This document shows positions 16,934-21,144 of a stretch of 32,926 nt of DNA, piece after piece; the first letter of the stretch is position 1, and the number at the start of each line of letters is the position of its first letter. This stretch comes from Methanothermococcus okinawensis (GTDB lineage Archaea; AGJL01; Methanococci; Methanococcales; Methanococcaceae): NCBI GenBank assembly GCA_015662355.1, contig DQUI01000063.1:1-32926 (forward strand), given 5' to 3'. The notes under the pieces were generated by a model, which saw only the letters and a list, made by a program, of their open reading frames with translations, had not been told where the DNA came from and did no database searches. A program made the position numbers and the translations under genes.

Positions 16934-17488
16934 CTATCCCCTTTTTAGCCTACAGGTGATTATATTTACAGGGTTTCTAGCGAGCATCATATGGCCGTTT
17001 TTTATCTTTTTCCCATAACTTACTACAACGTTTACAACCTCTGTATCGTATCTCTCTATGTCCTGGAGGTAGTTCAATATCTTTGCAGTATTTTCAAGGA
17101 CTATAGTGTTTATCACTATAACCTCTGTATTCCTCTCTGTGAGAATATCTAGAATTTTATATATATTCTTTGTACCTCCCACAAAGGCCTTGTTAAAATC
17201 TAAGGACTTTAAAACCTCCTCCCCTCTCCCCTTTATCAACTTACAGTTTTTAACGTTGAAGAGTTCCAAGTTTCTCCTGGTAGTCTTTATAGCATCTTCA
17301 CAGTAGTCTATGGCGTATAGGAACTTACACCTTCTAGCTATCTCTACAGTCATACCTCCGCTACCACATCCAATATCCACTACAACGTCATCAGGCTCTA
17401 AACGTAATTTAGCAATACTTATAGCTCTAATCTCCTCCTTGGTAAGGGGAACACCCTCTGTTCTAAAAAAATCCTCGTCTCTAATCAT
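16934..17488 (-). CDS. cbiT: Cobalt-precorrin C15-methyltransferase (decarboxylating) CbiT
   Basis: 184 aa from ATG 17488, chosen for AAAGGAGGGGAAGAT before it; the track's earlier start adds a region that is really the radA/cbiT promoter. SAM-binding motif I is [16 protein letters not shown] near residue 40, followed by [15 protein letters not shown] and a conserved FVGGTKN. Known: CbiT methylates C15 and removes the C12 acetate carboxyl group in anaerobic cobalamin synthesis; methanogens need corrinoids for methyl-H4MPT:CoM methyltransferase. First gene of cbiT-hmgA-hef, divergent from radA. Confidence 0.92.
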
Positions 17489-17523
17489 ATCTTCCCCTCC
17501 TTTATATACTGCAAAAATTATAA

Positions 17524-17539
17524 ATAGGGATGTCCCTAT
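17524..17539. promoter_or_regulatory. Perfect inverted repeat in the cbiT/radA divergent promoter
   Basis: ATAGGGA-TG-TCCCTAT: two 7-bp arms with a 2-base spacer. It lies just after TTATAAATA and before the expected radA start of transcription, a position where a bound dimer could block or guide polymerase. The operator role is inference. Confidence 0.45.
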
Positions 17540-17588
17540 AGTTATCCTACCCTCTTTTATTCTAATCATGGTTATAGGTGATCCTTCA

Positions 17589-18557
17589 ATGGCAGATAAA
17601 TTAACTGATATACCTGGAGTTGGCCCTTCAATTGCAGAGAAACTTATTGAGGCTGGATATACTGATTTTATGAAAATAGCAACAGCCTCTATCGGTGAAC
17701 TTGCGGAGATCGACGGTATAAGTGAGAAGGCGGCAGCTAAGATAATAGCCCATGCAAGGGAGCTGTGTGACCTAGGATTTAAAAGTGGTATGGATCTTCT
17801 GAACCAGAGGAGAACAGTATGGAAGTTATCTACAGGTAGTAAAGAGTTAGACAGGATATTAAACGGTGGATTGGAGAGCCAATCTACTACAGAGTTTGCA
17901 GGTATGTTTGGAAGTGGTAAAACCCAGATTGTACATCAGGCCTGTGTAAATCTCCAGTGTGACGATATGATAACTGCAGATAAAGAGGTACTCAGTGAGA
18001 AGGAGTTGGAGGATAGAAAGGCAGTATATATAGATACTGAAGGTACATTTAGGCCTGAGAGGATTATACAGATGGCTGAGGCCCTAGGGATGGAGGGTCA
18101 GGAGGTCCTTGACAGCATCCTTGTTGCAAGGGCATACAACTCAGACATGCAGATGCTCTACGCAGAGAAGGTAGAGGAGCTGATAAGATCAGGGCACAAC
18201 ATAAAACTAGTTGTTGTAGACTCCCTTACAAGTACCTTTAGAAGTGAATATGCAGGGATGGGTAAACTTGCAGAGAGACAGCAGAAACTTGCGAGACATA
18301 TGGCAACCTTAAACAAGTTGGCAGACCTATACAACTGTGTAGTACTTGTAACTAATCAAGTTGCAGCAAAGTTAGATACCTTCTATGGACCTTCAGAGCA
18401 GCCTATAGGTGGACACATTGTAGGTCACGCTGCAACCTTCAGATTCTTCCTCAGAAAGAGTAAAGGGGATAAGAGGGTAGCTAAGTTGTACGACTCCCCA
18501 TATCTCCCAGACTCTGAGGCAGTATTTAGAATAACTGAGAAGGGAATCCACGACTAA
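17589..18557 (+). CDS. radA: DNA recombinase RadA
   Basis: 322 aa from ATG 17589, preceded by AGGTGATCC, an almost complete anti-16S match; the 279 extra bases in the track ORF are rejected. N-terminal helix-hairpin-helix ([16 protein letters not shown]), Walker [10 protein letters not shown] near 107, a QMLYAEK region, Walker [10 protein letters not shown], and the C-terminal [15 protein letters not shown] with an ATP cap. Known: RadA is the archaeal RecA/Rad51, forming filaments for strand exchange. Length and sequence closely follow the M. voltae protein as I recall it. No intein interrupts Walker A. Convergent with purE, 3 bases apart. Confidence 0.97.
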
Positions 18558-19626: not shown

Positions 19627-21144
19627 ATGAATAAAAAAATAGGGTTGTTAGGAGCCCTATTTGTTATATCTCTTCTCCTCGCCTTCCAGATAGGTGTGGC
19701 GAAGAGCTACAGTGGAGAAAACCTACCTATTAAAGCTAGAGGGGTAAAGAATGTTATAATACTCATTGGAGATGGAATGGGTGTTGGTCAGGTGGAGATA
19801 ACAAGACTTTGTCATGGGCATCTCCACATGGAAGACATGAGCTATGGAGGTTATGAACTTACAGGTTCCTTAAGTGGTCCAGTTACAGATTCTGCAGCTG
19901 CAGGAACTGCCATAGCAACTGGATTTAAGACGTACAACAAGATGATATCTACGGTAAAGGTAGGAGGTAAGGTTGTAAATGTAACTACCCTTTTAGAGCT
20001 GGCAAATTACAGTGGTAAATCTACAGGTTTAGTAAGTACTACAAGGATAACCCACGCTACTCCAGCAGTATTTGCGTCCCATATAGATAACAGGGACAAG
20101 GAGAAGGAGATTGCAAAACAACTAATAGAGCATAAGGTTAACGTGTTATTTGGAGGAGGTAAGAGGGAATTTGACAGCGAAACCTTAGAGTTGGCAAGGA
20201 AGAGAGGATATGAGATAGTATACACTAAAGATGAATTGAAGAATGTAGATGGAGATCACGTGTTAGGTTTATTCTCTGACAGTCACATACCCTACGTATT
20301 AGACAGGGACAACGATACTGTAGGATTACTGGACATGACAAAGAAGGCTATAGAGTTGTTGGAGAAGGATCCAGATGGATTCTTCCTCATGGTTGAAGGT
20401 GGAAGAATAGATCACGTATGTCATGCCAACGACGTTCCATCTGTTGTAGCAGAGACTAAAGAGTTTGACGACGTTGTAGGTTACTGTCTCGATTACGCAA
20501 GGAAAAATGGGGATACCCTTGTAGTAGTTCTAGCAGACCATGAAACTGGTGGACTGGGAGTAGGAACAGATTACGGAGATCCAATAGATGAGGATAGAAT
20601 ACTCAGTGTCAACGCATCTGTAGATAAGATGGCTAAGGAGATAAAGAATGGGGGAAATCCAAGGGAGGTTATAAAGAAATACACTGGATTGGATTTAACA
20701 GAGGAAGAGGTTAAAAGGATCAAAGAGGCTATGAACTCTGACAACAAGTACGCCCTTGGAAACGCCATAGGAGAGATCCTCAGTGAGAGGGTAGGGGTAA
20801 GATTCATATCCCACAAGCACACTGGGAACCCAGTTCCTATACTGGCATACGGTCCTGGAAAGGAGTACTTCAAAGGATTTAGACACCATGTAGATACAAG
20901 TAGGGAAATTGCAGATATAATGTTATTTGGTGGAGAGAGGTACGTAAATGTCAATGGAATAGGGGTAATAAAGGGAGATGCAGATGGAGATTATAGAATA
21001 GACCTAGATGACGCCTATATAACACTTAACTACTACGTAGGTAAAACAGCGTTAAACAGTGACGAGAAGAGATTAGATATGGATGACAACGGAATAATTG
21101 ACTACATGGACGTAGTAAAGATAATGGAGTTGGTAGAATCCTAA
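19627..21144 (+). CDS. Secreted alkaline phosphatase with C-terminal dockerin domain
   Basis: 505 aa. Residues 1-25 are a Sec signal peptide (KK, then GLLGALFVISLLLAF, cleavage near GVA-KS). The alkaline phosphatase fold follows: GDGMG with D49, nucleophile S89 in TDSAAAGTA, THATPA 142-147, EGGRIDHVCHAND with E257, D262 and H266, ADHETGG with D304/H305, and KHTG with H399 region. All metal-site motifs are intact. After a short linker, residues 450-505 hold two EF-hand-like loops, DADGDYRIDLDD (451-462) and DMDDNGIIDYMD (484-495), spaced as in type I dockerins. Known: dockerins bind cohesins in a calcium-dependent way. The enzyme should work outside the cell, tethered to a cohesin protein not in this window. 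GAGGTGATTAG sets the start. Confidence 0.9.
   Translation: MNKKIGLLGALFVISLLLAFQIGVAKSYSGENLPIKARGVKNVIILIGDGMGVGQVEITRLCHGHLHMEDMSYGGYELTGSLSGPVTDSAAAGTAIATGFKTYNKMISTVKVGGKVVNVTTLLELANYSGKSTGLVSTTRITHATPAVFASHIDNRDKEKEIAKQLIEHKVNVLFGGGKREFDSETLELARKRGYEIVYTKDELKNVDGDHVLGLFSDSHIPYVLDRDNDTVGLLDMTKKAIELLEKDPDGFFLMVEGGRIDHVCHANDVPSVVAETKEFDDVVGYCLDYARKNGDTLVVVLADHETGGLGVGTDYGDPIDEDRILSVNASVDKMAKEIKNGGNPREVIKKYTGLDLTEEEVKRIKEAMNSDNKYALGNAIGEILSERVGVRFISHKHTGNPVPILAYGPGKEYFKGFRHHVDTSREIADIMLFGGERYVNVNGIGVIKGDADGDYRIDLDDAYITLNYYVGKTALNSDEKRLDMDDNGIIDYMDVVKIMELVES

Follow-up and report, generated by a model that had tools for sequence, protein, structure and literature searches.

An open reading frame in the window (the whole stretch of 32,926 nucleotides that was analysed) was confirmed, at the level of its sequence, as the gene of a presumptively secreted PhoA-type alkaline phosphatase (AP) carrying a two-loop F-hand module at its C-terminus. 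The C-terminal module is probably a surface anchor that docks to a cohesin, a reading to which we give a probability of about 0.6. The positions of the features are listed in Table 1.

Table 1. Features of the alkaline phosphatase gene, in positions of the window.
Feature	Position	Strand	Evidence
Secreted alkaline phosphatase with C-terminal dockerin-like module, 505 aa (predicted)	19627..21144	+	Pfam Alk_phosphatase, 8.6e-81
Signal peptide, residues ~1-26, no lipobox Cys	19627..19704	+	Inspection; compared with 16 further tailed APs and with four tail-less APs that have a lipobox
Alkaline phosphatase catalytic domain, residues 41-429	19747..20913	+	Pfam Alk_phosphatase
Dockerin_1-like module, residues 449-498	20971..21120	+	Pfam, 18.4 bits; orthologues up to 29.6; PDB dockerins best
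First F-hand calcium loop DADGDYRIDLDD, residues 451-462	20977..21012	+	Asp at 1 and 12 invariant, 18 orthologues
Second F-hand calcium loop DMDDNGIIDYMD, residues 484-495	21076..21111	+	Positions 1, 3, 5, 9 and 12 invariant, 18 orthologues

The reading frame was complete and started with ATG. The N-terminus, MNKKIGLLGALFVISLLLAFQIGVAKS, was recognized by inspection as a type I signal peptide in which Cys is absent, in agreement with the signal peptide proposed in the initial annotation of this DNA. The intact AP core proposed there was likewise found: PF00245 gave a whole-domain match of 272.5 bits (cut-off 24.4), and the metal and nucleophile motifs D49, S89, H143/T145, E257, D262/H263, H266, D304/H305 and H398 were all there, the nucleophile Ser and the two-metal ligands being presumed by motif from knowledge of the family. 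In the AlphaFold model the pLDDT of the core was mostly 85-99, and the closest PDB folds, 3a52 and 2x98, are both alkaline phosphatases. The genome had been described as Methanococcales-like, which is right, since the closest named relatives are from Methanothermococcus. Phosphate-transport genes do not adjoin the AP gene in the window. Elsewhere in the window, the listed 415-aa RadA frame (17310-18557) begins too early; the alignment of relatives gives 322 aa.

Both loops of the tail follow the 12-residue F-hand pattern D1, D/N3, D/N5, D/N9, D12. The offset from loop 1 to loop 2 is 33 residues and was unchanged in 18 of 18 orthologues from Methanococcales and Thermococcaceae, all of which also have Asp at positions 1 and 12 of both loops. 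Conserved to this extent, the loops are not a product of chance. Asp instead of the usual Glu at loop position 12 is a dockerin trait. The earlier description of two C-terminal EF-hand-like repeats with type I dockerin spacing was therefore accurate, the corresponding offset being 34 in the dockerin of xylanase Y. This clostridial dockerin (PDB 1ohz/2ccl) and that of 2y3n share with the AP tail the two F-hand loops, Asp at positions 1 and 12 and a C-terminal location on a secreted enzyme. The AP tail differs from them in that its loops are not near-identical repeats and in the residues found at positions 10/11.

Among Pfam models, Dockerin_1 (PF00404) was the best for the window tail, with an E-value of 0.0024 and ahead of EF-hand_6 at 15.9 bits, but its 18.4 bits stayed under the cut-off of 22.9. 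The Pfam comparison suggested for the tail thus gave the expected model at a score short of the threshold in the window copy. All 12 aligned orthologous tails matched Dockerin_1, and three of them, each scanned singly, passed the cut-off (23.7, 27.4 and 29.6 bits). A profile of the tail searched against the PDB placed cellulosomal dockerins on top (2y3n_B, E 2e-5; 2ccl_B, 3.8e-5; 1ohz_B, 6.6e-5). AlphaFold gave no confident model of the tail, the pLDDT being 46 on average when the tail was modelled alone and about 30 within the whole protein. Based on the Dockerin_1 matches, the leading PDB dockerins, the conserved loop spacing and Asp 1/12, the tail is accepted as dockerin-like, a cautious wording given that the window copy is sub-threshold and the structural model of low confidence. 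The sub-threshold score would also fit a generic EF-hand pair with a spurious likeness to dockerins. Such a reading is highly improbable in view of the orthologues above the cut-off, the leading place of dockerins in the PDB profile search, the Asp found at loop position 12 throughout the orthologues, in loop 1 and loop 2 alike, and the higher scores of Dockerin_1 over EF-hand models in every tail table inspected individually. On these grounds, a dockerin is favoured over a generic EF-hand.

Orthologues of the window AP are 57-87% identical to it along the full length. Tailed full-length APs were found in Methanothermococcus and G025; of 94 Thermococcaceae, about 10 had one, G082 among them. 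We take G082 to be P. abyssi, G025 M. infernus, G028 M. jannaschii and G011 M. okinawensis. A tree built from the phosphatase domain placed the tailed APs in a single group with a support of 1.0; every member of this clade has the tail, and it is found in no other AP, tail-less Methanococcales APs included. The patchy presence of tailed APs across two distant orders suggests transfer. The linker, residues 432-446, is the most variable part of the protein (27-47% identity to distant orthologues), and positions 10/11 of loop 1, the putative contact residues, differ among species (LD, SD, KD, KE, ER, AK, EK, RR and PE). The P. abyssi AP, a PhoA-type enzyme of a hyperthermophilic archaeon, is a direct orthologue with 64% identity, tail included. 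In the presumed P. abyssi genome, unlike in the window, the tailed AP lies inside a phosphate-transport operon in the order pstS-AP-...-pstCAB, the Pst proteins being assigned by domain type and order. This setting fits phosphate acquisition.

Some tailed AP genes showed irregularities. One of the ten from Thermococcaceae, in G129 (L182, L185; g31, a Pyrococcus-like genus), is interrupted by stops and changes of frame. L036 and contigs C188 and C196 of G205, a metagenome-assembled genome labelled Thermococcus paralvinellae (SZUA-1476), contain two AP fragments that share 90% and 79% identity with the window protein; these are probably mis-binned Methanothermococcus contigs. An essentially identical block of the AP gene and a gene for a 378-aa protein is present in different surroundings in G009 and G012 (L170, L171), which are assigned to different genera, suggesting recent transfer or rearrangement.

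The reading of the tail as an anchor is based on proteins that have a lipobox in its place. In the Methanocaldococcus-type genomes G028, G024 and G027 (L187, L188 and L189), orthologous binding proteins of FecCD-type transporters carry a lipobox, for example MSGC, LPGC or LSGC, and no dockerin. This applies to SBP1 in all three genomes and to SBP2 in G027 and G028. No cohesin was found in these three genomes. In the cohesin-bearing relatives (L111-L130), the same binding proteins have an N-terminal dockerin instead of the lipobox. A binding-protein dockerin and a cohesin were both present in 22 cases, a dockerin only in 3, a cohesin only in 0 and neither in 6 (Fisher 1e-4, phylogeny not corrected); the tally was made by hand, and G024, G027 and G028 were the only genomes in which the binding-protein lipobox was read. 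One of the three dockerin-only exceptions, G026, has a diverged cohesin. A parallel distribution was seen in the APs. The lipobox is absent from the signal peptide of 17 of 17 tailed APs whose N-terminus could be read, and the signal peptides of the tail-less Methanococcales APs end in a GC-type lipobox in 4 of 4 cases (IICGC, LCGC, IICGC and TAGC), read by eye since a strict pattern did not flag them. Being one clade against another, the alternation in the APs counts as a single event. These sequence patterns are most simply read as two alternative ways of anchoring a protein to the surface, by dockerin or by lipobox. Since a lipobox replaces the dockerin in sister binding proteins and in tail-less APs, the AP tail is read as a non-covalent surface anchor. 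Compared to the lipobox-anchored surface proteins of archaea, the dockerin versions would use protein-protein docking instead of a lipid anchor.

Candidate partners were found in the genomes of relatives, where Pfam detected PF00963 cohesins over the cut-off in G001, G003, G005-G009, G011, G012 and others. These cohesins sit on S_layer_C/CARDB proteins or on membrane-anchored proteins, and are encoded in a conserved cluster. One arm of the cluster encodes a single-cohesin protein of ~190 aa, a membrane protein of ~290 aa and a membrane-anchored cohesin protein of ~700 aa; the single example of the last that was scanned has a PKD domain. The second arm encodes a Peripla_BP_2 binding protein, whose N-terminal dockerin is near-perfectly duplicated, and a large cohesin/CARDB/S_layer_C protein. 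FecCD permeases adjoin the cluster in several genomes, and in G008 a distance of about 6 kb separates it from the gene of the tailed AP. Because cohesins are near-universal in Methanococcales, their co-occurrence with the AP is uninformative and was dropped as evidence. A 184-aa protein of G010 and a 181-aa protein of G026 are homologous to the single-cohesin family, yet have no PF00963 match. G011 also encodes, near an S_layer_C protein, a 1751-aa CARDB/PKD/TED protein (L123:5145-10400) whose C-terminal dockerin is canonical (33 bits); this protein is possibly a further client of the cohesin system.

A Pfam search of the whole genome to which the window belongs (G000) gave no cohesin and no dockerin match; the known AP tail was missed too, so this result was not read as absence. 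When the cluster contig of G006 (L114) was aligned to this genome, contig C25 (4,526 bp) corresponded to the left flank and stopped within the FecCD gene, and C32 (20,778 bp) corresponded to the right flank. At the syntenic position, the end of C32 encodes AGSDRWGTKAAVEYFKTLEDLPKEPIFVEWRNERAVKIEKP, the C-terminus (last 41 codons) of an S_layer_C protein. The end of contig C45 is near-identical to that of C32, which indicates an assembly break at a repeated sequence. Since C25 and C32 end where the syntenic cluster should be, the missing cohesin cluster is most simply an assembly gap, and the cohesin part of the gene remains putative. The cohesin-bearing surface protein implied by the initial annotation was found in close relatives, and the assembly that contains the window breaks at the site where it would be expected. 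Remnants of a second dockerin-bearing binding protein were seen in this genome (C12:30655-30771) and in its nearest relative (G010:C93, L117:3571-4144); these short coding fragments are gene decay.

In the proposed mechanism, the AP is secreted and would be kept at the cell surface through its C-terminal dockerin module, which would dock to a cohesin in a calcium-dependent manner. The cohesins on the S-layer-domain (S_layer_C/CARDB) and membrane-anchored proteins would be the candidate partners in Methanococcales, and the binding proteins of FecCD-type transporters that bear a dockerin probably dock to them too. The AP dockerin would take the role that the lipobox, a membrane lipid anchor, has in the sister proteins, and phosphate would be released at the cell surface. 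We infer binding of the tail to one of these cohesins, the choice of cohesin and the benefit for phosphate capture.

A shared cohesin partner for the AP tail and the binding-protein dockerins is not assumed. The HMM of the co-encoded binding-protein dockerins does not recognize the window tail, which scored -1.1 bits, i.e. at the level of shuffled sequence, and hhalign gave a probability of only 45% between the two; the AP tail would on these values need another cohesin specificity. The two also differ at the putative contact residues. In G082 and G102, the tail-bearing Thermococcaceae searched with PF00963, no credible cohesin was found, the model matching either nothing or short fragments of other proteins. 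Weak cohesin matches in G062 and G082 were read by eye as CARDB/transglutaminase-like proteins. Either an unrecognized partner or an additional cohesin-independent role could explain the tail in G082 and G102. The extracellular phosphate-scavenging complex that had been proposed from the window stays putative, as the tail is unlike the co-encoded binding-protein dockerins and its orthologues persist in Thermococcaceae, two genomes of which were searched without a credible cohesin.

In such a cohesin-independent role, the tail would be a dockerin-fold calcium-binding domain that has lost the ability to dock, or never had it, and that makes the AP, its dimer or its C-terminal end more stable at high temperature. 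The invariant Ca-ligand positions are kept in the Thermococcaceae without a credible cohesin match, the putative contact positions of loop 1 vary between species, and all tail carriers belong to what are, from general knowledge, presumably thermophile or hyperthermophile lineages. Nevertheless, we hold this to be unlikely. Methanococcales APs without the tail exist, the variable linker is unlike a tightly packed extension, the tail is not packed on the core in the AlphaFold model, where its confidence is low, and such a role would not explain why tailed APs have lost the lipobox. Less probable still is that the tail binds some other partner, a diverged cohesin-like or other surface protein, in Methanococcales and Thermococcaceae alike. 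The different class of the AP tail and the family members missed by Pfam in G010 and G026 speak for such a partner, but no candidate was found, and the several cohesin types of Methanothermococcus make a new one needless there.

Docking to a cohesin thus stays the preferred reading, and its anchoring principle is already published for ANME archaea (Chadwick et al. 2022, PMC9012536). As described in the part of that account dealing with dockerins and cohesins, ANME archaea have dockerin-bearing ABC-transporter binding proteins and cohesins, for which S-layer-linked attachment was proposed. Both systems are archaeal and non-cellulosomal, with dockerins on nutrient-acquisition proteins. The reported carriers of the dockerin there are binding proteins and, in ANME-2c, also S-layer proteins, whereas in the present case a phosphatase carries it and an S_layer_C protein bears the cohesin; lipobox alternation is unmentioned in that part of the account (PMC9012536). 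A full-text literature search for dockerins in Methanococcales and Methanothermococcus gave the ANME paper alone as relevant, the non-cellulosomal dockerins surveyed by Peer et al. (2009) lying outside its scope. Compared to the clostridial cellulosomes, the enzyme here is a phosphatase, and no sign was seen of a cellulosome, with its cellulose-binding scaffoldin and dockerin-bearing glycoside hydrolases.

The odds are about even that Methanococcales have a general platform of cohesins on the surface layer for the docking of nutrient-acquisition proteins, with dockerin and lipobox interchangeable and the AP one of several clients. If true, this would be a cellulosome-like 'nutrient-gathering' assembly outside cellulose degradation, not described for Methanococcales in the literature searched. 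Culturable Methanococcales offer test systems, in which the thermostable phosphatase is an easily assayed client. The alternation of lipobox and dockerin on orthologous proteins would give cohesins and dockerins a concrete, testable role in non-cellulolytic archaea, namely the surface anchoring of nutrient-gathering proteins.
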